From: [Phialemoniopsis] sp. UDSM-2020 | Lineage: Eukaryota > Ascomycota > Sordariomycetes > Thyridiales > Thyridiaceae | Reading direction: 5' to 3' | Length of the DNA stretch: 64,000 nt | Assembly: GCA_018873225.1 (NCBI GenBank) | Contig: JAEILZ010000005.1 | Location: forward strand, 4,216,001-4,280,000 | In this document: one piece after another, positions 15,054 through 31,460 of the stretch | Position numbering within the stretch: position 1 is the first letter of the stretch | Layout of the letters: the number at the start of each line of letters is the position of its first letter | Program-made: the position numbers and the translations under genes | The notes under the pieces: model-generated | Told to the model about the DNA's origin: nothing | The model's input: only the letters and a program-made list of their open reading frames with translations | The model's database searches: none

Positions 15054-17161
15054 ATGTCCGCGCCTTCCACAGGCACCAGCATTTCTGCCCACAGCAAGAA
15101 GCGCAAGCGAGCGCCGGGGACATACGAGAGAAGGCGTGCCGTCACCGCATGCCAGCCATGTCGTTTTCGTAAGACCAAGTGCGACAACCAGCGGCCTATC
15201 TGTGGCTTCTGCCAAGCCAACAATGGTAACTGCGTATGGCCAGATACCGCAAAAGACCATTCTTCGTAGGTCCAGCCTGCACGTTCTCCCCTAAGGGGTC
15301 TTTGCGTCGCGATGCTGATTTTAAACTTTCGTAGCTATGACCCAGCGAGCATAGCAATTCTGGAAAGGATCAATCATGTCGTCTCTCTCCTCGAAACAAC
15401 CCGACCTGTCGGCTCCGATACCCCAGAAGCCGGAGCTTCACAGCTCACAGCGGACGGACCAATCACACCGGCGACAGGCCAGATCTCGACCGGCCTGCGT
15501 GGCACGACTCAGTATGGCGAGGAAGACTTTTCCAAACTCCTCGAGCTTCCGGATTTCCTCGCGACAAGTACCAACTGTGAAGGGATCTTGACGTGGCCGA
15601 TATTTCTCTCAGAAGCCCCCGCAGTTCGCTCTTTCGTGCTCGAGAGCAACGAATACGTAACGGGGCAATACTTCAGTCAAGATGCCATTCGGAAAGAATC
15701 ACAGCATGGCCTCGGAAAGGGAGTACAAGAAGATGACTTCATTCCTCTGTCGAGGAGATTTCTCACTTATGTTCACGTGAAGAATCCCATTCTTGATGTC
15801 ACTTCTTTCAGGGCCATGGTACGCGACATCTCCGAAAATGGCACTCGCTGGGACGGCCCTTCATGTCTTGTTGTACGTTACACCCGCCACTCAAACAACT
15901 TTGTGTCATGGTCCACATGTTAACATATTCGCTCGGCAGCTCATTGCATGTGCGCTGGCATGCCTAGCCTCTCCCTTCACCCCCGGTCTCAGCTCCTATG
16001 AGAGCCCAGAGTCTGTCCGGTCCACTGGCACACTCCCCACAGATACTGACACTGCAGCATCATACTACCTTGCTGCAAGGAAGAGACTCGGTCTCCTCCG
16101 GCCGTCCTTGATACACATCCAGTGCCTATTTCTGTGCGGTGTGTTTGAAATGTACAGTCTTAACCCCATGCAAGCCTGGTTCTACATGCACCAAGCCAGC
16201 GTTCAATTTCAAAACCTTTTATGGGCTAGGAATCAAGGAACTGCGATGATCACTCCGGCCATCTCCCCCGATGTTCGGCGCCTCGAGCAAAGACTTTACT
16301 GGTCTTGCATGAAGTCAGAATGGTGAGCGTGTTCATTGCAGAGTGAGCCTGTCGAGATCGCTGACCGTTTTCTGAAGTGAACTGCGGAGCGAGATACCTC
16401 TTCCACCTAGTGGTATTATTCGATTCGACTATCCCGATCTTTTCCCGTCACCTCCAACCGAGCTGGTGTCGCCCGCCGCTGGAGACTTCCAATTAACGAC
16501 TTGGGGTGACGACCTTGAACCAGAGGAAGAGCGGAGCTGGTTCTACTACCTCGCCGAGATTTCCTTTCGAAGGATGATGAACCGCGCTATTATCGCCGTC
16601 AGCCGGAACGGTTTCCACAACTGTGTGAGTAACTTGGACGAGGCCATCGGCATCTGTCACGACTTTAACGAGCAGATCGATGTCTGGTGCTCTCATCTGC
16701 CGCCCCAGATCAATGTGGACGAAACCGCGCTGGTGCCCAATGAACTGGCTCACTACGTGCGCAATCGCGCGAGGGCGTGTCGCGAGTGGATACACCGGCC
16801 ATTTGTGTATTATCTGGTGCACTACGGACGCATCAATGAGATTGAAGGGGCAGGGGCCACGCCAGATCCGAGGGCGCTGCCACTTGCTCAGCGGTGTCTC
16901 GAACTTTGTGTGGAGCTCACGCTGCAGTCTTTTCCACATCACCGCCACCATGGAACGTGGTACGTTGCTCGGACTTCGATGACGCGTGCCCTCATTCTCC
17001 TGGCCGCCGCCAGGAGTGGGAGGATCGCAATGCCGGACCGTTGGATGGAAGCTGTTGATCTTTCGAACAACACGTTGCAGAGGTGGGCCGAGGAGGCACC
17101 GGATCTAGATTCTGCTGTCAAGGTGCTCAACGACATTCGAGCGAATACGTACAGCGGCTAG
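15054..17161 (+). CDS. Zn2Cys6 transcription factor, candidate cluster A regulator
   Basis: Exons 15054-15265, 15335-15872, 15940-16322 and 16378-17161 (introns 69, 67 and 55 nt, phases consistent) give 638 aa. A basic N terminus (KKRKR) precedes a complete Zn2Cys6 cluster with cysteines at 33, 36, 43, 50, 53 and 60 (CX2CX6CX6CX2CX6C). The middle and C-terminal parts read as a fungal-specific regulatory region, with the characteristic W-S-C-x(3)-E-C-E-L-R-S-E-I-P-L-P-P-S-G-I segment spanning the third intron. It is nuclear and DNA-binding by family. Its own promoter carries the element found before the sulfatase, transporter and oxidoreductase, so it is the obvious candidate activator of cluster A. 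Confidence 0.92.
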
Positions 17162-17303: not shown

Positions 17304-19265
17304 TCAAGGGTTGTTCTCTCGATCTTCCCAGCTTCGTGAAGCGTGTGCATTCTCGGGTGCTCTCAAGTCCACTTGGCAGGGTTTGTGTCGTTTGGTTCTC
17401 TTCACGATCTTCCACCAAACCACGTTGATGGCAAAAATAACGATGCCAATATACTTGACGACAAATGTCTGAGGGTTGAAACGAGGAATGAAAGCATCAT
17501 ATCCTTTTTTTGGCGGATAGTTATCAGTTATTGGCCTTTAGAGCAGAGCTTTCCGAAGTCAGAGCAGAGAGGATGCTTACCGTTGAATAGGATAATCAAG
17601 GTGGAGACAAATATCGCGTAATAACTCCCCCAGGGCTGGAACCAACTAACATAGGGAAGCTCGGACAAAGGAATGTGTTGTGCTTTGAGTGCCCTGCGGA
17701 AGGATAGATGCGACACCAGAATAGCGATCCAGTTGAGAACTGCAAACACCGTGACCAGACTCACGAGTATATCAAACACTGACTTGGCTGACTTGGATGC
17801 ATTCATAAAGGCCAAAGCACCAAAGGCGGACGTCAGCAGCACTGCGAAGATAGGGTTGCCGTTGTTAAGAACGCGCCCGAATATCTTGGGTGCTTGACCG
17901 TCCCGCGCAAGGCCGTACAGCGACCGTGAAGCACAATAAATGTCTACCAATAGTAGGTTAGTATCAAGCAGCTGCCTCGTCATATTTCGGGGTACCTCCC
18001 TGAGCTTGCTGCACTGAGGGCAAAGATCAAGAGTGCGCCGTTGATGACATGAGAGAAGACTCTGATTCCCGCGAGACTTATTGCGACAACATAAGGAGAG
18101 GCCGCTGTGATATCAGACGTCAGCCGAGAACCGTTTTTGAGACTCAAGTAATGCAAGTACCTGCCCTAGTCGACTTCTTGGTTGCCCTTATCAAGTCTGG
18201 ACTGTCGTACGGAACCGTCATACCAAGGACGAGGACTCCTAGGACGTAGAATGTAGCGATGCGCCAGAAGGTTTGCTTCACAGCGCGAGGGACATTCTTG
18301 CGCGGGTTCGGTGTCTCCCCAAATGTCATGCCGACAACCTCGGTGCCCGTATATGCAAAACAGGCTGAGCACATTGTCGCCCACCACCCCAAGAACTGTC
18401 CCTTGCGGCCCTCCAACAGGTACGGGGCAAAGGCTCCGGGGGTGTTCCAGTACCAAAAGCCGGTAGCGTGGTGATTGGGGCCACCGCCCACGGCAATGAT
18501 GAAACAAGTCAATATGAGCACCACAAGGGTAATGACCTTGATGACGCTGGCCCAGAATTCCACCTCGCCGAAGCTCTTCACATGGATGACCTGACGGCAC
18601 GGATGTTAACGAGGCTGGATTTCAAGGTTGTGGGTAGTGAGGTATCAACCATACATTTATTGCCACTACCAGTACCCCAAAGATGGCAACCCAGATCGCG
18701 ACGTTCAAGTTTGGTGCCCAGTACTGAATGATGAGGCCAGCGGCAGTCAGGTTGGTCGGGGTCGCAATGATGTATTTACACCAATAATTCCATCCAGTAG
18801 CAAAACTGGGACGATGTCAGATACCCAAGAAGACACCGGGTGGAGATTGTTCAAACAGAGGACGGGACTATCCTTGTCCACTCACCCATAAGCCGGGTCT
18901 ACCATACGCGTGGCGCATCCCCCGAAGCCCTTGTTCATGGGGACATAAGCTGCCATCTCCCCCAGAGCGGTCATGACGCAAAAAACCGTGATTCCAACGA
19001 TGATGTAGGATATGAACATGCTCCCTGGACCCCCTTTGGCAAGCGCCGTTCCGGAGCCGATGACGAGGCCTACCCCAACAGCGCATGCGAATGAGAACAT
19101 GAACAGCTGGTGAGGCCGAAGCTCGCGATGAGGTTCCTTGGTTTGGACGCTTGTTTCGCCATCTAGACTCGGCGTTGCAGTGGCGGCACTAGCATTGTGA
19201 CCTTCTGTTTTATCGTTCATAGCCGCTGGGGCGTCGATTGCTGTTTTGTTCTGAGCTTGGATCAT
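17304..19265 (-). CDS. Amino-acid permease (APC/YAT family), one aberrant splice junction
   Basis: Exons 19265-18886, 18805-18655, 18590-18161, 18104 to about 18000, 17943-17581 and 17503-17304 give about 542 aa, the normal length. The protein has 12 predicted TM segments and family motifs GLVIGSGTALAKGGPGS (a variant of the usual GTGLFIGSG), GFATGWNYW, GTEVVGMTFGETPNPRKNVPRA and YCASRSLYGLARDGQAPKIF. ATG at 19265 is the first in frame. Four introns are canonical. The fourth is not: to keep frame between AASS and DIYCAS the exon must end at 18000, but the next bases are GGAGGT rather than GT. The GT five bases further would frameshift and an upstream weak GTGCAG donor would delete six residues. 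Lies between cluster A and cluster B; I assign it provisionally to B as an uptake protein for an amino-acid-like substrate. Confidence 0.8.
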
Positions 19266-20078
19266 CGTGATATTGAGTCTGGTCAAATAAACAGGAGAGT
19301 TGTATTGTTGTCTGTGCTGGCTGTACCCATGGCTTACGGAGGTGTCTTGTTGGCGCTCTTAAGTGAGTCAACGAGCGCATTTGGGTAGTGGCACTTGCCT
19401 CTGGTCAACGGAGGGCTCCCTGACGATGCTTGATGATCCTGGGCATACTGCTGGCTTAAGTCCTAGCCCTCCCAACATGTACATTCCCTTTCCACATGAG
19501 TGGTATTATCGTAATGAATTAGCGCTGGCTACTTGTCAGAGGGTGCGTTATGTCAAGTTGCCATCTTCGTAGCTATCAAGCACGTGGGAAGGCTAATGGC
19601 TCGGTACCGCATTCCGAGTTGTCGGTTTGGGTACACCGAGGCGGATCCGCACCCGATCAAGACACTTTGAGTGCAACAGCAGCCTTGCTATCATGCAGCT
19701 CCCCACGAAGCAACTCTAGAGATAGTTGACTTGGCTAAACGGTTTTACATTAGACCCAGTTTGGATTCTGGGGGACCAGTCGGCTCTTCCACATCCCACA
19801 CGTGAATCGAACGCCTGAATTTGAATTTAAGGCAAAGAATATGAGCCTTGGCACTGGATACGATTCATTGCACGACATGCTTGTTGTCACAATCGATGTT
19901 GTATACCCATGGAGTTCGACGGAAGGGGAACACCCCGCCGAAGATCGAAGTCTTGTAAACATCTTTGCATCTCCTCAATCCCTCCTGTTTTGCTCGGGCT
20001 ACCAAGATTAAAAGTGCGAGCCGAGGCTTGTGGAGGGAAAATAGTGAATTCTAAGTGGCCTGAATTTTGGAAGGACAA
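19266..20078. promoter_or_regulatory. Permease upstream / aminotransferase downstream region
   Basis: No gene supported. A CCGAGTTGTCGG palindrome-like site (CCG-N6-CGG) lies at 19614-19625, about 350 bp upstream of the permease ATG. Confidence 0.4.
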
Positions 20079-21451
20079 TCAAGAATATTCAGTAACTCTT
20101 CTAACGACGTCATCTACAGCTCGTGCAAAGTACTCGACATTGCTGTTGTTCAGACCAGCCATACTGATCCTACCATTAGTGAGCAAGTATATGTGCCACT
20201 TATCTCGAAGCTCCAATACCTGAGCTTCCGTAAGCCCGGTAAAGCTGAACATTCCAATCTGAGTTGTGATATGACTCCAGTCACCTGGGGTTCCTAGGTC
20301 CTCTAGCAGCTCTCTCAACTTGTCCCTCATGTCTTTGATACGTCCTGACATGGTCCTCATGTCCCTTTCCCATTCAGCGAATAGCACGGGGTCGTTCAGA
20401 ACAATGGATGCGATTTTTGCTCCATAGATCGGAGGTGTAGAAATCTCCGATCTTTGCAAGACCGCCAGTTGAGAGGAGACACGAGCCACGACGTCTTCAG
20501 TGTTGGGGTCAGAAGGCGGGCTGACATAGTGAAAGCAGCCAACACGTTGACCGTATAACCCGAGGTTCTTTGCGAATGACTGTGCGATCACCAGCTCAAT
20601 ACCCTGATCGACAAAGTGACGCACGGCAAAGCTGTCATCTTCGAGGGAGCCGGAGGCAAAACCCTGGTAAGCGCTGTCAAAGAATGGGAGGAGCTTGCCG
20701 TGCTGCACCACTTTCGCCACTTCACGCCATTGCTCACGCGTCAAATCCAGACCCGTGGGATTATGAGCGCAAGGATGTAAGACAATGATGCTGCTTGGAG
20801 GTGCAATCTTGAGTGTGGACATCATGCCGTCAAAGTCGATAGCTTTAGTCTCTTTCGAGAAGTAGGGGTAGTACTCGATTGGCAAGTGGACGTTAGAGAA
20901 GATTTGTGCATGGTTGTCCCATGTGGGCGTCGAGAGGTAAACCCTCGTCGGTTGAGGTAGGAATTTTGCCAGAAAAGCGCCACCTAAATGAACCGCTCCA
21001 GTTCCCGAGATTGTTTGGAGCGAGCACACCTTGACACTTAGTGCAAGGGATATCGAAGACAAATGGACAGCAGACTTACACTGCCTTGTTTGATTGCAGG
21101 TGAATGCGGGCCCAAAATCAGCCGCTGTGCCGCTTCAGTGAACGAAGTCAGGCCGGGTATAGCCAAATACTCGTTATTTCGCTCGTTGTCGTTATGGAAC
21201 ATTTCGTCGGCCTATGAGTGGTTGGATAAGTCTCTTTGTAGGGATTGAAGACGTTGACTCACCTTCTTTACCACCGGGAGAACCCAGGGTTTGCCATTGT
21301 CATCACGGTATGCGCCGATGACTAGGTTCAGTTTGGTTGTCGCATTGTCCGCTTGATAAGCAGCTTTCAGCCCATAATGAGGATCTGGAGGTGCTTGAGG
21401 AACAAGCATGGGAGTAAACACAGTGGCTGGAGCGTCGCTAACACGTTTCAT
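20079..21451 (-). CDS. Aspartate-aminotransferase-family PLP enzyme (candidate phosphonoalanine transaminase)
   Basis: Exons 21451-21263, 21211-21080 and 21029-20079 (introns 51 and 50 nt, all phase 0) give 423 aa. Class I aminotransferase features are evident: NLVIGAYRDDNGKPWVLPVV near the N terminus, YLAIPGLTSFTEAA, SGTGAVHLGGAF, HPCAHNPTGLDLTREQW, FFDSAYQGFASG and the PLP-lysine segment AQSFAKNLGLYGQRVG. This is the aspartate/tyrosine aminotransferase pattern. It starts without an obvious mitochondrial presequence. Standing next to a phosphonopyruvate-hydrolase-like gene and an amino-acid permease, it could convert phosphonoalanine (an aspartate analogue) to phosphonopyruvate; that is inference from context. 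It may instead be an ordinary aspartate aminotransferase paralogue. Confidence 0.88.
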
Positions 21452-22152
21452 GATGATAAGAAGGCCAAGGGACGATACGGTGGTGGCTCTACAATAACCA
21501 GAGTGTTTACAATTCTTGCATTTTTGGATAGCAGCAGTGATTACCTGCAGTGTATAACAGCTACTTAGTCGTTTTGAACATGCAACCGAAACAAATTGGA
21601 TGGTATGAAGATGGCATGAAAACGGCAAGCTTTCGGCTGTGCTCCGTCCCCTTCGGGTATTTTTTTCGGGTGGGCGATCCCGGGTTAATGACTACTGAGT
21701 CTTGCGCGCTTGACCATATGGAAGCACTATTCTAAGTAGTCTAGGGAGCCCCTCGGGTCCTCGATGACCTGGAATCCAATCAAAGTTGAAAAGCTACTTG
21801 TCGTCCAATTGTAGTGGCTTCTGCAGTCGCGTGGTTAGTGATCCGGAGTGTCTGCGGGGCACCACGACCCTCTTGGCCCAGGCCCTAATCAGGTTTAGCA
21901 AGCACCGAAAACACTGGAGCCAGAGGGGCTAGTCAGGTCACGTAATGGGCCTGGAGTACCAAGACATGATCCCGCTTCAGCCCTGGTCTAATCGAGAAGC
22001 ACTGCGAACAACAACAATGCAGAGCGGCAGTGTCGGTCCCTGAAGCCACTGGTTTGACGCACCAGCGTGCAACCTGTTGAATTGCTGCAAAAGATGCGGA
22101 TGGCCCTACCGAACTCAGAGCTGTGCCACCCTCGGTAATTACAGACTTCTTT
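21452..22152. promoter_or_regulatory. Bidirectional promoter, aminotransferase and cluster B regulator
   Basis: Head-to-head intergenic region. Contains CGGGTGGGCGATCCCG near 21669-21684, an inverted-repeat-like site, but no convincing match to the CCGAG-type sites of neighbouring promoters. No gene supported. Confidence 0.4.
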
Positions 22153-24680
22153 ATGGCCGAGCAGCTGGTTGCGGCCGGTGGCCAGGAGAAGAGAAGAATC
22201 AGCAATGCGTATGTTCCCTGTCAGACAAGCCAACATATATTATCGTCAGGGACTGACTCAGCCTCCTCTTGAGCTGCCGGACGTGTCGTCAGCGCAAGGT
22301 CAAATGCTCGGGCGGCACGCCATGTCGAAACTGCTGAACCGCCACCAGGATTGCATCTATGACGAAGCTGACAGGAGGGTGGTAATCCTAGAGCGGTATG
22401 TATTCGCTTGTCTATTCCTGATCAGCCTATGGGTCGTGTCGGTGACACCAAGAATGTCGAGTAGCCACCTGCGCACTCTTCAACGTCGTGCAGAGACGGC
22501 TCAACACTCTTCACCCTCGTCGGTATTAGCCGATACCCTGTCTCCGGACCCGAGAATCGGTAGTGATCACAGAGAGGAACCACCGCAGGCCCCCTGCGAT
22601 GGACTTGACACGCGGATCTCTGTGCAACGCGCGGACAGCCCAACTCACGTCCGACAAGGTGTGCTGTCCTCAGAAGAAGGACATCCGCAGCGTGGGAACA
22701 TTTCTGACAGGGTAAACAGATGGGAAGTACCAGAATGTATCGACATGGGCACTGGCAAGGGAGGTAGAGGATCTACTAAGCGCCCATTGCCATGAGAAAG
22801 GAGGACTATCTCCTACCGACGACGGGTTGTACAACATTCACCTCGAGACCAACGAGGCATCGACTAGAGCACCGAAACCTCTGCCCCCGCCAGAGCAGGT
22901 CGCTCATCTAGCACAAATCGCACACTTTCACCTAAGTCCTTGTCATCACGTCTATGATCTCACGACTTTCCTTGAACAACTCGATGTAAGCAATGGCCGG
23001 CATGGAGCAAGGAGACAGTCGCGTCTATGGCTTACTCGTTCATGGGGAATAATCGCTTTGGGGAAGTTGTTCCTAGAGAAAGGAGCCAACACCTCTGGTC
23101 CACCAGGGCTAAGTGACTTTCTGGAAGCTGCGCGGATGCTTCCATCCACCATTGCCATCTGCAGGGACCCTGTGATAGGCGTTGAATCCTTGTGCTTATT
23201 GGCCATATACGCTGAGACCGCGAACATGCATGATGTGGCATATCTTTTTGTAAGTCGACCCTTTGAGATCCGGTGACGAGCACTTGATGCTGATACGAAC
23301 TTAGGCTGGTCAGGCAGTCCGGTTGGCACGCCAAGGTCGACTAGATCAAAATCGTGATCAGTCGCCAACACGCAGTAATCACTTAAAAGAGTTGTGGTGG
23401 ACGGCCTCGATTCTGGACCAACGGCTATCTGTCGCCGTCGCCGTCAAACCGGAAAGCCTGGCAGAAGAAGTTGTACCCGGCGACTTATGCACTACCACTT
23501 CCGACGCAGGTCTGCGACTCACCATCGCTATCACTAATACCTTGGCAAAGATAACTACTTGTAAGCTACTTGATGACGCCCTCGATAAAGACTGAGGCCA
23601 CATTGACTGACTGTTCTCCTAGCTGCGCTGAAACATGTTCGAGACCATCGCTTCTCTAGCCCTTCCATGATTGCATACATGAGAGCCACTGTTATACCCT
23701 TGGGAGTTCTACGACAGCTCGGACGTCAGCTGCATCACTGGAACAGCCTCTGTTGTGACCATTCTCTGTCTACCATCTCTCGCACAGTAGCTATATTGCA
23801 TCTGGTCTACTACCACGTAAGCTCTCTAGGGTCTCGTCGATGCTTTAGCTGACTAATTCTAGTGTGCGATGACTTCTGTCAAGCCACTGATCCTTTACCT
23901 CGTTCGACAGCATCTAGAAGACCATGAGACGGTCGATAATGTAGAGGTCTCGGAGCCAGATCTTGTCTCTGCATTCGTCAAGACCGGCATCACCTGTGCG
24001 ACGAGTAGCCTTCACATTCTCGATGCGCTTCATAATGCAAGTCTTTTAGGTCAGTTATGCCACGTCTGGATAAGCTACATAAGTCTAACATGAAGCCTGA
24101 AGAGTCCTTCTCTTTCTTTAGTGCCGAAGTGGCGTTTTTGTCCTCGGTGTTGTTGCTGTTGACTGGCATTACGAGTCCTGGGACAACCGAGGGCGACTGG
24201 CTCAAGACAGCGATCAAGATACTCAGTGAGATGGCAGGCCGAGGGTACTTGCCGGCGAAAGCGTTGCGAGCCAGGCTTCAGAGAATAGCAGAAGTGTCGT
24301 TCGATCAGGGCGTCAGGGCAAAAGTTAGTCGTCTGCCACCGACTTGGGACAAGGTCCGAGCGGTTGCACACGACGGCCGGTCCCTGAACGACGCCATCTT
24401 GGCAGCGATACAGCTGCAGACCACCGCATATGCTGTCACTTCCAATATGGATCTCGACCCTGCCAACTCGTTCGAGACAATCCCGAATGATGCCGTGTTG
24501 GATCTATCCGCGGCCCAAGCAGTATTGCAACCACAATCAGTTGGCGCGTCGTCACTTATACCGTCGACTCAAAGCACTACACAGGTAATGGAGGATTTAT
24601 TCCTCGACGATTTTGGAACGCTGGGAAGCAATGCCAATATCGACTTTATAAATATCCCATGGCTGGACACCATGGAGTAG
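22153..24680 (+). pseudogene. Zn2Cys6 transcription factor with frameshift in zinc cluster
   Basis: Readable exons: 22153-22208, 22274-22395 (containing the frameshift), about 22465-22660 (start could be 22453), about 22734-23249, 23305-23560, 23623-23816, 23863-24053 and 24122-24680. Exon 2 encodes five zinc-cluster cysteines (CRTCRQRKVKCSGGTPCRNC) and then hits TGA at 22335-22337; the sixth cysteine (NRHQDCIYDE) continues in another frame. One base is missing between TGC (22332-22334) and AAC. Downstream exons encode a normal fungal_trans domain (LWLTRSWGIIALGKLF, ELWWTASILDQRLSVAVAV) and have standard introns. The 22400-22740 linker is my least certain part. The gene is divergent from the aminotransferase and next to the aldolase and hydrolase, so it is the candidate cluster B regulator. 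A single-base assembly error would make it intact. Confidence 0.75.
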
Positions 24681-25080
24681 ATTCTCTCGAGGCTAGATCA
24701 TGCGAGCTGCCATAGTAATCCATCGTCTGAAATTCATGCATAACGAAAAGCTCTGTGCATGTGACATTGCGTTAAGTCGAGCCAACTGATCTCAGTGGTC
24801 ACGGTCATTGCATGCAGCCGAGTGATGCAAGCCAGGTCGGTGGTGGGTTGCCGAGCTCGGTGGTGGGGTTCCGAAACCGACGGTGCCACTCCAGACATTC
24901 CAATGATCCACCCAGATACGCGCACTGGTACCAGACCTGAAACACCACACTCGCCCAAGGTCGAGGATCTTCCTGGCCACAGTGAGCAGATGCATATTCA
25001 TTCAAATCAGTCTTGTTGTATCACCCAAGGAGACTTCGACATAGCGTCGTAAGAAGGAGAAGAGCAGAAATCAGAGCCGG
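24681..25080. promoter_or_regulatory. Aldolase upstream region
   Basis: No gene supported. CCGAGCTCGG palindrome at 24851-24860, about 220 bp before the aldolase ATG. Confidence 0.4.
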
Positions 25081-25990
25081 ATGTTGGTCAACAACCTCTT
25101 GCGCAATACGGCGCAAGGTCGTGCTTGCACAGTGAGTTTCTTTGACTACATTTCACAAAACTGAGGCTGAACAATGTAGGCCGTCGGCGCCAAGGTGATT
25201 TGTAGCGACGAGTTCGTGCTTCTAGCGAAAGCAGCAGGCTATGACAGTATCTTTGTCGATCTGGAGCATTCCACATTCTCTCTGAGCGAAGCAAGCAGTC
25301 TATGTTCTTCGGCTCTGTCATCAGGCGTGACGCCCTTTGTAAGAGTGCCCTACGAATGCGGCAGTGGCTTTGTGCAGAGAGTCCTCGACGGTGGCGCAAT
25401 GGGCATTGTGTTTCCTCATATCAGCACCGCAGGTCCGTTGAATTCCATCAAATGTTCGCTGTTACTTAAATCGTCGCATCTGACCTTTGACCCCAGATGA
25501 GGCTAGAAAGGCCGTGGCCTCCACCAAGTTTCCGCCGATGGGCAAAAGGTCCCTGACAGCAGCCTTGCCGCAATTCGGGTTCCAAAGGATAGGAGCGCGG
25601 GAGATGATTAGACAACTTGACAGTACTGGTTCAACAGACTTTGTCATGATTGAGACAGCCGAGGGCCTCGAAAATGTTGAAGACATCGCGGCGGTAGAAG
25701 GAGTTGATGTTCTACTCCTGGGGGCAAACGACCTTTCACTTGAAATGGGGATTTTGGGTGAGTGGGAGCATTCGGCCTTTCAGAATGCGCTAGAGAAGAT
25801 GGCAACAGCTGCGCACAAGGCTGGGAAGATTCTCGGCATATCTGGACTGTATACGAGGCCAGACATCACGAGACATGCTGTCAGAGACCTGGGAGCCAAA
25901 TACATTCTGGGTCACATTGACATAGGGCTGCTTTCTATGGCTATGAATACCAACATGGAGCTGCTGAGGGATATGACTGGTGCTAGTTAG
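25081..25990 (+). CDS. HpcH/HpaI-family aldolase
   Basis: Exons 25081-25131, 25180-25432 and 25497-25990 (introns 48 and 64 nt) give 265 aa. The TIM-barrel HpcH/HpaI aldolase pattern is present: GYDSIFVDLEHSTFS (catalytic histidine and metal context), FVRVPYECGSGFVQRVLDGGAMGIVFPH, MIETAEGLENVEDIAAVEGVDVLLLGANDLSLEMG. Family members are metal-dependent class II pyruvate aldolases acting on 4-hydroxy-2-oxo acids, or related malyl-CoA/citramalyl lyases. It lies 400 bp upstream of and in the same direction as the phosphonopyruvate-hydrolase-like gene. Its link to phosphonate metabolism is unknown; it could make or cleave a pyruvate-derived intermediate. Confidence 0.9.
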
Positions 25991-26389
25991 TCTCGATGTA
26001 AACAGCTGTAGAAATAGCTTGAGAGTCTAGTGTCATGTCCAATTGGTTGGGTTGGACATCGCCATCTCCGTTAAGCGCACAGTTGCTATCTCGGACTGCA
26101 CGTGTTATTCGTTCAGGAGTGCATCATTCCGTTGTTGCAATTTCTGCGGTTCTCGGTGTTCCGAGCTCTCGGCTTAGCGGACCCGAATGATGACTAGGCT
26201 TGCACACCTATTGTCGTTCAGTGACTAGTATCCGTGATGTTATGTTATTGACCTTGGAACAGATTGTCTCGAGTACGGTCGGGATTGAAACTGACTTAAC
26301 CCTCTTGACTTACGTCTTACCTAGGCCCGCCACAATAACAGTCAAACTACAACGATCATCCAGCGTTCTATTCGAGTCCTGCACCCATC
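25991..26389. promoter_or_regulatory. Promoter of phosphonopyruvate-hydrolase-like gene
   Basis: No gene supported. CCGAGCTCTCGG (CCG-N6-CGG) at 26161-26172, 229 bp before the ATG, resembles the sites at 19614-19625 and 24851-24860. Confidence 0.4.
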
Positions 26390-27271
26390 ATGGCTCCCCA
26401 ATCTATTCCTTCTAACAAGCTGAGGGAAAGGCTCCAGCAGAGATCCACGCCAGCTATAGCTATGGCTTCGCACAACCCCATCGCGGCTAAGCTTGCTGTC
26501 GAGGCCGGCTTTGATGCCATATGGGTCAGTGGCTTCGAGATATCAGCCTCTCATGCCGTACCAGATGCTAGCATTCTGCCACTGAGCGTCAACCTCGAAG
26601 TGACTCGCCGAATTGGAGAAGCTGTGCCGGACATCCCCCTGGTTGTCGATATTGACACTGGATTCGGTAATGCTGTCAACGTGGCATACACTTTGCCACA
26701 ATTCGAGGCAGCTGGGGCGGCGGCTGTTGTCATGGAAGACAAAATGTTCCCAAAGGATACTAGTTTGAGGTCCAACGGGAGGCACACCTTGGTCTCCATA
26801 GAGGAGTTTCAAGGCAAGATTGCCGCAGCAAAGGCTGTCAGCTCAATGGTCGTCATAGCAAGGGCAGAAGCCCTCATTGCTGGTCTGGGCCACGAAGAGG
26901 CCGTCTCGCGAGGTGTCGCCTATGTCCAGGCCGGCGCTGACGCCGTGCTCATCCACAGCAAGTCCAAGTCCCCGGACGAAATACTATCCTTTTGTCGCGA
27001 ATGGCCATTGCAAGCACCACTGGTCATCGTCCCGACTAGCTACCCGCAGCTCTCCTTCGCCGAGATTGGGGCACTAAACAAGGTTGGACTGGTCATTTGT
27101 GGCAACCATGCGATTCGCTCGGCTGTGTCTGGCATGCGGCGCACATTCGCCCGCATACTCAAAGAGGGCGGACTTGCGGGAGTGGAGTCAGATATCACCA
27201 CGGTATCGGAGGTATTTGACCTTCAAGGCGATGCACAGATGCGTGCTATCGAGCAAGCATTTCTTCGCTAG
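26390..27271 (+). CDS. Phosphonopyruvate hydrolase-like (PEP mutase/isocitrate lyase superfamily)
   Basis: Intronless 293 aa from ATG in context CATCATGGCT. It is a full-length PEP mutase/isocitrate lyase-superfamily TIM barrel: WVSGFEISASHAVPDA (residues 45-60), Mg-binding DIDTGFGN (87-94) and the gate motif EDKMFPKDTSLR (116-127). PEP mutases carry Asn-Ser in that gate motif (EDK-x-FPK-x-NS), whereas phosphonopyruvate hydrolase of Variovorax carries Thr-Ser; this protein has T124-S125. ADAVLIHSKSKSPDEIL and LVIVPTSYPQLS also follow the hydrolase subgroup. It does not show the KRCGH motif of isocitrate lyase or fungal oxaloacetate hydrolase. The predicted reaction is phosphonopyruvate + H2O to pyruvate + phosphate, cytosolic. 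Subgroup assignment rests on remembered motifs, so PEP mutase activity remains the main alternative. A bacterial origin is possible given the lack of introns. Confidence 0.82.
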   Translation: MAPQSIPSNKLRERLQQRSTPAIAMASHNPIAAKLAVEAGFDAIWVSGFEISASHAVPDASILPLSVNLEVTRRIGEAVPDIPLVVDIDTGFGNAVNVAYTLPQFEAAGAAAVVMEDKMFPKDTSLRSNGRHTLVSIEEFQGKIAAAKAVSSMVVIARAEALIAGLGHEEAVSRGVAYVQAGADAVLIHSKSKSPDEILSFCREWPLQAPLVIVPTSYPQLSFAEIGALNKVGLVICGNHAIRSAVSGMRRTFARILKEGGLAGVESDITTVSEVFDLQGDAQMRAIEQAFLR

Positions 27272-27596: not shown

Positions 27597-28397
27597 ATGA
27601 GATTTACCGCCTTGACAAGCAACCTGGCACGAGGTGCTGTTGTCTTGATCGCAGTTGGGGGCCAATGCGTGTTAGCCGAGTGCACCAGAGAGAGTTTGCT
27701 AGCTGAGGCTGCAACTTACGTTGCTGCACAGACGGCTGGCAAAGTCGATGGCTTGAAGTTGGCAGCAACAAACTTCACATATCGAGAGAACAACAAGGTC
27801 GTAGATCTTAAAAGTGGAGTGATCAGCCAACCTCTCAAGATCGACCTGAATCGGACCACAGCCGACACTGTTGCTTGCGCGAGCTATACAATGATGATCT
27901 CGACGACCGGCTCGAAGCCGTACGTACTCTCCACTCAGATACGGCATGCCGAGAACGACACAAGCTCCATAAGCATGATTGATACCATCGCCGCAACTAC
28001 CGGATCCCTCTTCTTCAATGCGGGACAGACACTCAAGTACATACAACAGGAAACGTGGACACCTCTAGACGAAGCCAAGAGGCCGAGTCGGGAGCTACTG
28101 AAGAAGGTCGGAGATTCTTATTTGGATATGTGGACAGACAAGAATGCGGCTGACTCGATCCCGTGGGGTACGCAATGCGAGCGGGTAGAGGGCTCCCGGT
28201 TGACAAAGCCGTGTGGTGGCCAGCTTCCCCACGGAGGAAGTGCAAAGCCCAATGGCATGCGAAGATATGTGATTGATGAGGTGAATGGCTCCGTTGATGT
28301 CCTGTGTTCTTTCGATTCGCTGGGAAATCTGCCAGACAGCCACGAGATCCGGGTCGAAGATGGCAAAGTGAAATACGTTCATACTGTTACAGTATGA
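27597..28397 (+). CDS. Secreted DUF8021-like protein
   Basis: Intronless 266 aa from the ATG at 27597. A hydrophobic signal peptide (about residues 1-25, ending GGQCVLAE) precedes a domain with ECTRESLLAEAATYVAAQTAG, CASYTMMIS and RRYVIDEVNGSVDVLCSFDSLGNLPDSHEIRVEDGKV. This layout matches a widespread fungal family of secreted proteins now grouped as DUF8021. Probable N-glycosylation sites are present (NFTY, NRTT, NDTS). Function unknown; members are thought to be extracellular. Confidence 0.75.
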   Translation: MRFTALTSNLARGAVVLIAVGGQCVLAECTRESLLAEAATYVAAQTAGKVDGLKLAATNFTYRENNKVVDLKSGVISQPLKIDLNRTTADTVACASYTMMISTTGSKPYVLSTQIRHAENDTSSISMIDTIAATTGSLFFNAGQTLKYIQQETWTPLDEAKRPSRELLKKVGDSYLDMWTDKNAADSIPWGTQCERVEGSRLTKPCGGQLPHGGSAKPNGMRRYVIDEVNGSVDVLCSFDSLGNLPDSHEIRVEDGKVKYVHTVTV

Positions 28398-28750: not shown

Positions 28751-29953
28751 CTAAGCAGATCCAAGGTTGATCTTGGGTGCGGTAGACCAACTACCAACCC
28801 AGTCACTCATGGTGACAGTCGCCTTGCTAGTCTCAACATCCTTCGTCTCACCCGTCCCAAGGAGGAACTTGTTGATGTAGGAGTTGAGGTTCTCGGTAGT
28901 TCCCGAAGGGAATTGACAATGCTGGTGGCCACCGACAAGGGAGAAGCCCATGTTGGGCCTGACACCGAGACCTTCGTAGATCATGCGGCCAGCCTTCATG
29001 CAAGCAGTAGTGCTGACAGGTCCGAGCCAATCGATATCGTTCTCGATGATGAACAGGCCTCGGGGAGCAACGAGGGCAGCAAGGAAGTGATGATCCTCGG
29101 GGATCGATGTCGTCTTGCTGGTGAAGCTGTTGAACTTGGGGGAGAACCAAGCATTCTCGCCAACAATCTGGCCGGCGGTCTGGATGTTCTTGCCTTTGCT
29201 CTTCTCAGAGTCGGAGATGCGCCAGCAGGCGGCGCCTCCAGAGCCAGACTCCTGAGGGATGGTTAAGGCGATACGCTTCTCGAGGGCGCCGACCATGAAG
29301 GCACCCTTGCCATTTCGACTGCAGCCGGTAACACCGAGCTTCTTAGGGTCAATACCGGTCTTGTCAGCGCCGAGCTGCTCGAGACCGTCAATGATGCGAC
29401 CGACACACCAAGCCCAAGCGGTGGTGGCACCAGCGCTGTGAGACTTTCCGTGTAGGTCGAAGAACCATCCAGAGCCGTGACTGCTTGGGTTCGCCTGGGC
29501 GGCACACGCGTCGTTTCCAAAGTTGATCCTACCGACACTGGCGGGCACGGGGACCGAGATGCCGCCGACGCCAATGATAGCAGCGCCGCCCGATGCGCCT
29601 CCGCCGCTGGGCTTGGTAATGCTCACGGAGATCGACTTAGTGTTGCTGCCGACCTTGATGGTCAAGCTCATGCTGTTTCCGGACATGGTGGCCGAGACAG
29701 ACTCTGGCGGCGGGGGGTAGTCGCCGAGTTCGTACTGCTGCATGATCTTGCTCATCTCTGCCTGACGGCACTTCCAGTCCTCGGCAGTGGCGACGGCCTT
29801 GCCATCGGCAAACTTCCAAGGATCAGGCAGGCCCTTGACGTCGACGGCGGCGTAGCTGTCGGAGACCTTGCAGGCGTCTTGGCGTGCGAAGAGCTCAGCC
29901 GCTGGCAGGGCCAGGGCGGGCACCGCCATGTAAAGAAAAGAAGAGCCAATCAT
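28751..29953 (-). CDS. Glucuronoyl methylesterase, CE15, secreted
   Basis: Intronless 400 aa from ATG at 29953; an upstream extension begins at TTG and is not needed. Signal peptide MIGSSFLYMAVPALALPAAEL is followed by a mature N terminus with paired cysteines (CKVSDSYA, WKCRQAEM). Catalytic features of carbohydrate esterase family 15 are all visible: nucleophile motif GCSRNGKGAF, acid in PQESGSGGAACWR, and histidine in GGHQHCQFP. CE15 enzymes cleave the ester between lignin and 4-O-methylglucuronic acid of xylan. There is no cellulose-binding module. The product indicates growth on plant biomass. Confidence 0.95.
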   Translation of the reverse strand: MIGSSFLYMAVPALALPAAELFARQDACKVSDSYAAVDVKGLPDPWKFADGKAVATAEDWKCRQAEMSKIMQQYELGDYPPPPESVSATMSGNSMSLTIKVGSNTKSISVSITKPSGGGASGGAAIIGVGGISVPVPASVGRINFGNDACAAQANPSSHGSGWFFDLHGKSHSAGATTAWAWCVGRIIDGLEQLGADKTGIDPKKLGVTGCSRNGKGAFMVGALEKRIALTIPQESGSGGAACWRISDSEKSKGKNIQTAGQIVGENAWFSPKFNSFTSKTTSIPEDHHFLAALVAPRGLFIIENDIDWLGPVSTTACMKAGRMIYEGLGVRPNMGFSLVGGHQHCQFPSGTTENLNSYINKFLLGTGETKDVETSKATVTMSDWVGSWSTAPKINLGSA

Positions 29954-31460
29954 TGCGAGAGATGGACTCCAAAGGGGCTGTAAAGAAGCTTTGGGTGTAA
30001 TGGAAGTGAACTGTCGGTACTTCCTGGCAGAGAAGAACGAGGTTGGAAGCAATAGTCCTATTTATGCACTTCTTGACTATTCTTCATTACATGGACTCTT
30101 GCATCCAGCTCGGAACAATAAAAATCACCCGGGCAATATTCCACCTTTTTCCCGATGTCATGCTGTCAAAGTCCTCAGTGCAACCCCCTTGGGCCTGTCT
30201 GCGTGCTCTTGCTAATCTCGAATATGCGCCTCATTTGGGATCTGGCATTTCCTCATATGGGTGTGGGTAGGACGTTTGCTTGGCAAACCGGGTTGTGGGT
30301 TGTTGAGGGGTTGTGAGCACCCACAGGCCCGATGATCATGTCAAGATCAATCGTAAGGACGATGCTATGGGTAATTGCCAAAGGTAGGTGGCCACGGGCT
30401 GGTATGGTCTGGGCACTTTGGGTGATTACAGTATGCCACATATCTCAACTTGCTTGTACAACTAAATAGGACCTGAACGCTGCCACTTTGCATTGGGTTT
30501 GTTGCATCAGTTACAAGAGAAAACACCAAGACGAGGCGTGTTTTTGACTGCAAGTGCCTTCACTTTAAATACCGCCAAGCAATACGAAATTTCGAGCAGC
30601 TGAACAAACGATCTATTCACCATTGAGGATTTCTTCGCGATGGAAGATGTACTCTTCCAAGCTCCCTTAGCATCTTGGCGCGCCACGCCAGTCCCTGAGT
30701 TCCCCGCAACGCCGAGCAGATGCCAAAGGTGGCCAAGAAAGCCAAGAAGGCAAACACCGGTAAAACTCAATCGCCAAGCAATTGCACGGAGCCACTGAAA
30801 TAGGAATTAGAAATGCTGAATGTGGCTGCATCGTGACTAATCATCTGTTTTCTCGAGTCCCGTGATACTGTAACTTGGACAAGTCAGTCCCGGCGCTAAG
30901 TTGCACTCTCAGGGCTTTTGGGGTTACAGAATTGACGTATAAGTGTGGAAGGGCAAGAGCTGGGCTTTCAGGGTCTACGTTGTACCTGCGAGGCAGTTCC
31001 CAGCAACACATGCTTAAACAATTACGGTTTACGATAAGGAAGAACGGCATGCTATTCATGCTGTAGAGTGAGCGCAACAAACATAAGCGAAGACGAGTTC
31101 CGATAAGAGACAATTTGGCGTGTTTCCGTATGTAGAACTTTTAACCCACGGCAAGAAGGGCTACTGTTGCCTTACTAAGCTGTCCATCCGATATTGGCTC
31201 CGATCCTCAACCGGGTCGACAAGTCGAAGTCTTGCCTCTCAAGTCACAGTCTGGATCAATCAAATACAAACTTGGTCATGTCTGTGTGGAGATCTGCCCC
31301 ATATTCTTATTCGTAATGCATTTAATGTTGCTACAAGGTGCTGACCTTCTTTACGCCGCAAACGCCCGAACAATGATCCGTCATCCAAAAGAGCCCGAGT
31401 ACCAAGTATCACACCGATCATAGGTTGTACATGCATTCCATTGTAGTTCCAGTCCTTGCC
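29954..31460. other. 1.5 kb intergenic region
   Basis: No supported gene. A short frame at 30640-30798 (52 aa, Arg/Pro-rich) and other frames below 100 aa lack recognisable content. The part next to 29953 is the promoter of the esterase gene; the part near 31460 is the 3' side of the rhodopsin-domain gene. Confidence 0.4.

Follow-up and report, generated by a model that had tools for sequence, protein, structure and literature searches.

In this study, we identified a putative phosphonoalanine degradation cluster in a 64-kb stretch of the genome of the ascomycete [Phialemoniopsis] sp. UDSM-2020 (bases 4216001–4280000 of contig 7, hereafter the window; the genome comprises 44.18 Mb in 11 contigs). 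Five neighbouring genes at window positions 17304–27271 encode an amino-acid permease, an aspartate aminotransferase (AAT) paralogue, a Zn2Cys6 regulator, a pyruvate aldolase and a phosphonopyruvate hydrolase (PPH, PalA-like). The introns, the Zn2Cys6 regulator and the protein matches are in keeping with an ascomycete-like fungus. We put the probability that fungi holding this cluster possess a working phosphonoalanine route at about two in three. The first-pass annotation of the window had proposed such a route, and its core, PPH together with an aspartate-type transaminase, is supported at the sequence level by family cut-offs, a phylogenetic tree, active-site residues, a distinct transaminase clade and the co-location of gene pairs. 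By their family scores, the gene identifications are far beyond chance, and the PPH, transaminase and aldolase genes are intact over approximately 980 codons.

A phosphonopyruvate hydrolase of probable bacterial origin

The PPH gene (26390–27271, plus strand) is intronless and forms a single open frame of 293 residues, identified by the TIGR02321 model, the Protein Data Bank (PDB) structure 2dua, the tree and an AlphaFold model compared with Foldseek. It had first been read as a gene of the phosphoenolpyruvate (PEP) mutase superfamily from its gate motif EDKMFPKDTS and a D-x-D metal site, and both are indeed present, the latter as D87 and D89. The protein scored 387.8 bits against the NCBIfam phosphonopyruvate hydrolase model TIGR02321, passing the equivalog cut-off of 374.4, and failed the models for PEP mutase (TIGR02320; 247 bits, cut-off 319.55) and methylisocitrate lyase (140.5 bits, cut-off 354.4). 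TIGR02321 has six matches across the genome, and the window PPH is the only one over the cut-off; by E-value, the same model also matches each of the 23 sequences in the close-relative alignment. The best PDB match is the PPH of Variovorax (2dua, E = 5e-108), and among the other matches the best PEP mutase reached 3.8e-70, oxaloacetate decarboxylase 7.4e-22 and oxaloacetate acetylhydrolase 4e-18. The window protein is identical to Variovorax PPH at 172 of 269 aligned residues and to Mytilus PEP mutase at 108 of 277. By sequence, it is almost certainly a member of the PPH family. PPH annotations already exist in fungi, and several of the listed fungal proteins carry the name phosphonopyruvate hydrolase.

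We compared 12 positions, which we take to be active-site positions of the family. All 12 residues (W45, S47, D59, D87, D89, E116, K122, T124, S125, L126, R158, and H189) equal those of Variovorax PPH, and 11 equal those of Mytilus PEP mutase. The sole mismatch with the latter lies in the gate, where its Asn122 corresponds to Thr124 in the window PPH. The gate Thr-Ser had been taken as the feature that separates this protein from PEP mutases with Asn-Ser. The absence of Asn stands as the relevant mark, but the Thr itself is not diagnostic because Ser is the rule in the set P0001–P0121, which includes the window protein (DSS in 117, DTS in three, and NSS in one), although Variovorax PPH also has Thr; the Thr was accordingly rejected as a diagnostic residue. 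The gates of 80 bacterial loci read VTS in 36, DTS in 23, DSS in 18, and MTS and VSS in one each, with one off-pattern. The PPH relatives with the V-T-S gate (most of the loci L062–L104, many of them Reyranella) form a bacterial group.

The AlphaFold model of PPH has a mean predicted local distance difference test (pLDDT) score of 87.8, and its lowest block (55) covers residues 121–130 in the gate. Foldseek placed 2dua nearest (template-modelling (TM) scores of 0.87/0.90), followed by the Streptomyces PEP mutase 5unc (0.87/0.88). Since the TM-scores of 5unc nearly equal those of 2dua, the fold alone does not decide between PPH and PEP mutase.

The protein search with PPH scored 7999 matches, 2768 of which had E ≤ 0.001 and 120 of which were listed. 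The bacterial scan yielded at least 465 relatives, from which 80 loci were kept, many with 10-kb flanks and some short. The phylogenetic tree comprises 103 rows, namely the window protein, 46 of the 120 listed matches, 53 of the 80 bacterial loci and three PDB chains, with two PEP mutases on long branches as the only other superfamily members. The window protein did not group with the PEP mutases: 101 rows, including Variovorax PPH, are separated from the two (99/97, starred); for oxaloacetate hydrolases, the comparison is by score. The window PPH and all 15 fungal-named rows belong to the same 38-row clade (98/97, starred). The 22 unlabelled rows of this clade are presumably fungal because they are interspersed among the fungal rows (10 label changes); no row in it is named as bacterial, and its internal branching is poorly resolved. 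Its sister is a 26-row group that is alphaproteobacterial where labelled (94/92), and the two are joined with support of 98/93 (starred). Variovorax PPH falls elsewhere, among 21 beta/gammaproteobacterial rows that group together (99/91, starred). The tree suggests that the fungal PPH gene was probably acquired from bacteria, and a bacterial source fits its lack of introns. The GC content gives no foreign mark on the gene (0.553, compared with 0.527 for the window).

The transaminase and gene pairs in other fungi

The aspartate-aminotransferase-like gene reported beside PPH is confirmed as an intact model on the minus strand (20079–21451; exons 21263–21451, 21080–21211, and 20079–21029, with two GT-AG introns) encoding 423 residues. 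Its product is a class I aspartate aminotransferase of the cytosolic AAT lineage (PRK09257-type). The 120 matches listed out of 7742 are fungal aspartate aminotransferases with identities of up to 68%, and a separate copy on contig C11, 64% identical to the window enzyme, was taken as the housekeeping enzyme. Alignment to AATs in the PDB indicated that the pyridoxal phosphate lysine Lys258 and the arginines Arg292 and Arg386 are kept, with what we presume to be their usual AAT roles.

The transaminase tree has 69 rows, of which 65 come from the 120 listed matches. In it, the window transaminase groups with those of Clonostachys (P0263) and Stachybotrys (P0253) with a support of 99 (starred) in the Shimodaira–Hasegawa-like approximate likelihood ratio test (SH-aLRT), and then with that of Viridothelium (P0296; 92). 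When either P0253 or P0263 is left out, the window enzyme pairs with the remaining one (99–100), and support for the grouping with P0296 is 88–93. We compared the residues of this four-member clade (the three core members and P0296) with 118 other rows, consisting of 117 listed matches and the C11 copy. Eighteen positions that are conserved in more than 85% of the 118 rows differ in all three core members. At AAT position 297, all four clade members have Thr and all 118 other rows have Asn. The change F18Y is also found in all four, and the three core members additionally have G36V, H68N, and A141D. In the HEX variant of the Escherichia coli enzyme, which gained aromatic substrates, N297 is among the six altered positions (PMC10539519). 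On the basis of Thr297 and the distinct clade, the window enzyme is a candidate phosphonoalanine transaminase. The transaminases of Stachybotrys chartarum (P0253) and Viridothelium virens (P0296) bear the same Thr297 mark.

The first-pass annotation left the conservation of the cluster in other genomes to be checked, and pairs of its genes do recur on one contig in other fungi. The database gives the longest contig for each protein, and we compared the lists for PPH (120), aldolase (119), and transaminase (119), covering the pairs PPH–aldolase, PPH–transaminase, and aldolase–transaminase. A shared contig was inferred from an identical contig size in bases together with the species, and in addition from one fused gene model. 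PPH and aldolase share a contig in Sarocladium implicatum (3477858 bases), Coleophoma cylindrospora (2197234 bases), and a JGI contig of 37898 bases. PPH and a transaminase share a contig of 122085 bases in Clonostachys rhizophaga, and this transaminase has Thr297. The 37.9-kb and 122-kb contigs show real proximity. As a control, the PPH and aldolase lists were compared at offsets of 1–20 bases, at which they agree solely for contigs shorter than 10 kb. A further PPH–aldolase contig in Fusarium solani-melongenae (P0112 and P0221; 6494018 bases) was rejected because its aldolase falls in a different clade and the locus tags differ by about 940. In Sarocladium, the gene model for the aldolase (415 residues) has an N-terminus that matches the window regulator (22893–23246; 121 residues, 31% identity, E = 3.8e-13); tblastn with this segment at E ≤ 1 gave no other match anywhere in the 64 kb. 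Because of this fused model, the regulator and aldolase genes are probably adjacent in Sarocladium, as in the window.

Aldolase, permease, regulator and adjoining genes

The pyruvate-type aldolase noted beside PPH is likewise borne out. Its gene (25081–25990, plus strand; exons 25081–25131, 25180–25432, and 25497–25990, with two GT-AG introns) is an intact model for an HpcH/HpaI class II pyruvate aldolase of 265 residues. The last exon alone scored 61.4 bits against PF03328 (cut-off 25), and the PDB relatives also place the protein in the HpcH/HpaI family. It is 49% identical to P0215, which is named 4-hydroxy-4-methyl-2-oxoglutarate aldolase TasA. The aldolase tree has 46 rows (45 from the 120 listed matches, with three outgroup rows including TasA) and places the window aldolase in a 28-row clade with the Sarocladium, Coleophoma, and JGI aldolases (98/86, starred). 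TasA is located outside both this clade and a starred 34-row clade that also holds the window aldolase, and a TasA-type grouping was thus not found. Many members of the 28-row clade come from Exophiala, Hypoxylon, Talaromyces, and other genera.

The permease (AAP/APC type; minus strand) extends from 19265 to a stop at 17304. Its description as an amino-acid permease holds in that four scanned pieces match TIGR00913 at positions 2–83, 84–134, 134–272, and 309–430 of 480, the scan excluding exon 18104–18001 and the last exon. One junction near 18000–17944 is non-canonical: the exon at 17943 is expected to follow the one that ends near 18000, but the two bases behind the latter are GG, not GT. 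An alternative GT-AG junction exists at the cost of a few residues, and no GT donor keeps the conserved stretch.

The regulator gene (plus strand) covers approximately 22153–24680. The Zn2Cys6 motif claimed for it was found at 22260–22334 (PF00172, E = 3.4e-7, model positions 2–23 of 39), but the reading frame is broken in this assembly. The zinc-cluster frame stops at a TGA after 22334, right behind the fifth Cys, and the sixth Cys and the linker are in another frame; no intron among those tried preserves all six Cys residues. The other pieces of the regulator that were scanned had no Pfam match. The metagenomic aldolase P0135 has a 21-residue tblastn match (57%, E = 3.3e-4) within the regulator region at 23460–23522.

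Several genes adjoin the cluster. A second fungal transcription-factor gene (15270–17161, plus strand), with PF04082 in one exon, lies next to the permease as a possible further member of the cluster. A fungal glucuronoyl esterase (28754–30061, minus strand; PF22244, 321 bits) is located just downstream of PPH, and between the two is an open frame (27597–28397, plus strand) with a secreted-like start and no Pfam match over the cut-off.

Proposed pathway, known systems and rival explanations

From the gene content, family membership, trees, and pair co-location observed here, we infer the substrates, direction, and regulation of the following pathway. The permease would import L-phosphonoalanine, an aspartate analogue. 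The specialised aspartate aminotransferase would pass its amino group to a 2-oxo acid, yielding phosphonopyruvate. The bacterial-derived PPH, with its metal on D87/D89/E116 and a gate loop at Thr124-Ser125, would then hydrolyse the C–P bond to give pyruvate and phosphate, so that the fungus may gain phosphate, nitrogen, and pyruvate. The most likely role of the aldolase is on the pyruvate side, in a reversible pyruvate aldol reaction, and not at the C–P bond, and the Zn2Cys6 protein may serve as the switch, though it is apparently broken in this assembly. In a variant that we consider quite improbable, a larger, undescribed phosphono amino acid is degraded: after transamination, the HpcH/HpaI aldolase would split the C–C bond of a hydroxylated phosphono-oxo acid and deliver phosphonopyruvate (or pyruvate) to the hydrolase. 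To our knowledge, a pathway combining a retro-aldol step and C–P hydrolysis is not known from any organism, although no search was aimed at it.

The bacterial pal cluster was described in Variovorax sp. Pal2, with the pathway also in Burkholderia cepacia Pal6; palR is a LysR gene, and palC–E encode putative transporters (PMC10574752). At seven of our 80 bacterial loci, a class I aminotransferase lies no more than 7 kb away, all seven falling in one similarity cluster; LysR and ABC genes are also present at five of these loci. These five fit the published pal cluster (PMC10574752) and, as other bacterial PPH loci, stand in for Variovorax PalB in our comparison. For the two of these aminotransferases that were scanned, the best score was to PRK06107, below its curated cut-off; the neighbours in locus L041 match LysR models, PhnT2, and PhnU2, all likewise below the curated cut-offs. 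The window cluster resembles the pal cluster in its PPH family, in the presence of transaminase, transport, and regulator genes nearby, and in the inferred two-step chemistry. In contrast, it has a PRK09257-type transaminase, a Zn2Cys6 protein, and an APC-type permease where the bacterial loci have PRK06107-type, LysR, and ABC genes, and none of the 80 bacterial loci has a tblastn match at 1e-5 to the window transaminase or aldolase. The first-pass annotation held that the fungal locus reproduces the bacterial set; it does not appear to do so by descent, and we rejected descent of the whole cluster from the pal cluster because the transaminase subgroup, regulator, and transporters differ. For the same reason, the fungal set was probably assembled separately. 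On this evidence, the hydrolase alone is of bacterial descent since the transaminase comes from the fungal AAT lineage.

The transaminase can also be set beside PnaA of Streptomyces phosphonoalamide biosynthesis, a reversible AAT-family enzyme specialised for phosphonopyruvate/phosphonoalanine (PMC11867202). By this description, the two share the AAT superfamily, within which the specificity of PnaA has shifted to these substrates. Unlike PnaA, which is bacterial, biosynthetic, and coupled to a PEP mutase, the window enzyme is fungal, of the cytosolic AAT lineage, and located beside a hydrolase. A yeast amino-acid permease takes up phosphonoalanine, as cited in PMC3905195. Cleavage of the C–P bond in a eukaryote, which had been proposed for this locus, is not new in itself: transaminase and phosphonatase activities on 2-aminoethylphosphonate are described for Geomyces (PMC3905195), and fungal phosphonate degraders and PhoF of Fonsecaea are cited in PMC10574752. 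The Geomyces and Fonsecaea systems likewise cleave the C–P bond in fungi, but act on 2-aminoethylphosphonate with other enzymes. Sclerotinia sclerotiorum has an alternatively spliced putative PPH (Sscle03g026100) with a suggested detoxifying role (PMC7749757); this is likewise a fungal PPH annotation, and the passage on it mentions neither a cluster nor a transaminase and does not address the gene's origin. We found no account of a fungal phosphonoalanine cluster in the literature searched, which mostly excludes subscription journals, and a literature search on phosphonate C–P genes and horizontal gene transfer in fungal genomes found nothing.

Several observations weigh against a phosphonoalanine route. 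The transaminase clade has long branches, about which the program warned, and position 297 has been placed near the cofactor phosphate, not the substrate side chain (PMC10539519). The PPH–transaminase linkage rests on one other genome, and for contigs of several megabases, sharing a contig does not amount to adjacency. As a control, aldolase and transaminase genes also share multi-megabase contigs in Exophiala viscosa and Cladophialophora immunda, whose transaminases have Asn297; because these two pairs are chance-like, shared large contigs alone mean little. The aldolases from PPH contigs make no subclade of their own within the 28-row clade. A group on contig C8 (L105, G000:C8:3581501–3591500) combines an HpcH/HpaI aldolase and an aspartate aminotransferase in the absence of PPH, so that the aldolase–transaminase pairing also exists outside a phosphonate context. 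Its neighbours are a permease-like frame (recognised by eye), a Fungal_trans_2 regulator, a class III aminotransferase, and a D-glutamate cyclase; we rejected the C8 group as a duplicate of the window cluster since the transaminases are about 33% identical over 370 residues. Lastly, the regulator frameshift and the non-canonical permease junction may reflect either a decaying locus or sequence errors.

Decay of a once complete cluster in this strain, with loss of the regulator and perhaps the permease, would explain the zinc-cluster frameshift and the non-GT splice donor. We consider it somewhat unlikely, as PPH, the transaminase, and the aldolase are intact and one wrong base in the assembly would account for the regulator; it is also compatible with a phosphonoalanine pathway in other fungi. 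Another explanation draws mainly on the C8 group, which combines an aldolase, an aspartate aminotransferase, a permease-like frame, and a regulator; here, the transaminase–aldolase pair would serve a hydroxylated glutamate-type amino acid such as 4-hydroxy-4-methylglutamate in either direction, with PPH being separate or supplying pyruvate. The resemblance of the aldolase to P0215 (TasA) favours it, as may the occurrence of window-clade aldolases in many fungi, and an aldolase and a transaminase make 4-hydroxy-4-methylglutamate in fungal tetramic-acid clusters (PMC7421883). The exclusion of TasA from the clade of the window and PPH-contig aldolases and the Thr297 transaminase on the Clonostachys PPH contig speak against this explanation, which we judge unlikely. 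We give a similarly low chance to detoxification, in which the same chemistry has another selective reason: the transaminase and PPH would destroy phosphonoalanine as an aspartate mimic, derived from antibacterial phosphonoalanine peptides (phosphonoalamides) of soil bacteria or from host phosphonates. Phosphonoalamide gene clusters occur in Streptomyces and Bacillus (PMC11867202), and the authors of the Sclerotinia study suggested this role (PMC7749757). No PhnX, PhnW, or PEP mutase match over the cut-off was found elsewhere in the genome, although intron-split genes could be missed, and the lack of the first two also fits detoxification; an uptake permease, however, runs counter to pure resistance. 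Finally, the 26390–27271 protein could be a PEP mutase, an oxaloacetate hydrolase, or a methylisocitrate lyase relative that does not cleave the C–P bond. This is extremely improbable. The superfamily fold is common to these enzymes, 5unc is nearly as near as 2dua by TM-score, and oxaloacetate hydrolases fall outside the tree sampling, but the failed model cut-offs, the PDB E-values favouring PPH, the replaced gate Asn, and the tree led us to reject a PEP mutase or oxaloacetate-hydrolase identity.

If the phosphonoalanine route is real, it would be a eukaryotic pathway that joins a bacterial C–P hydrolase to a remodelled fungal aspartate aminotransferase, and its metabolic cluster would have been put together independently of the bacterial one. 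Residues 18, 36, 68, 141, and 297 (AAT numbering) provide a short list for the possible adaptation of an aspartate transaminase to phosphonate. The use of phosphonoalanine by fungi in soil would thereby become directly testable.

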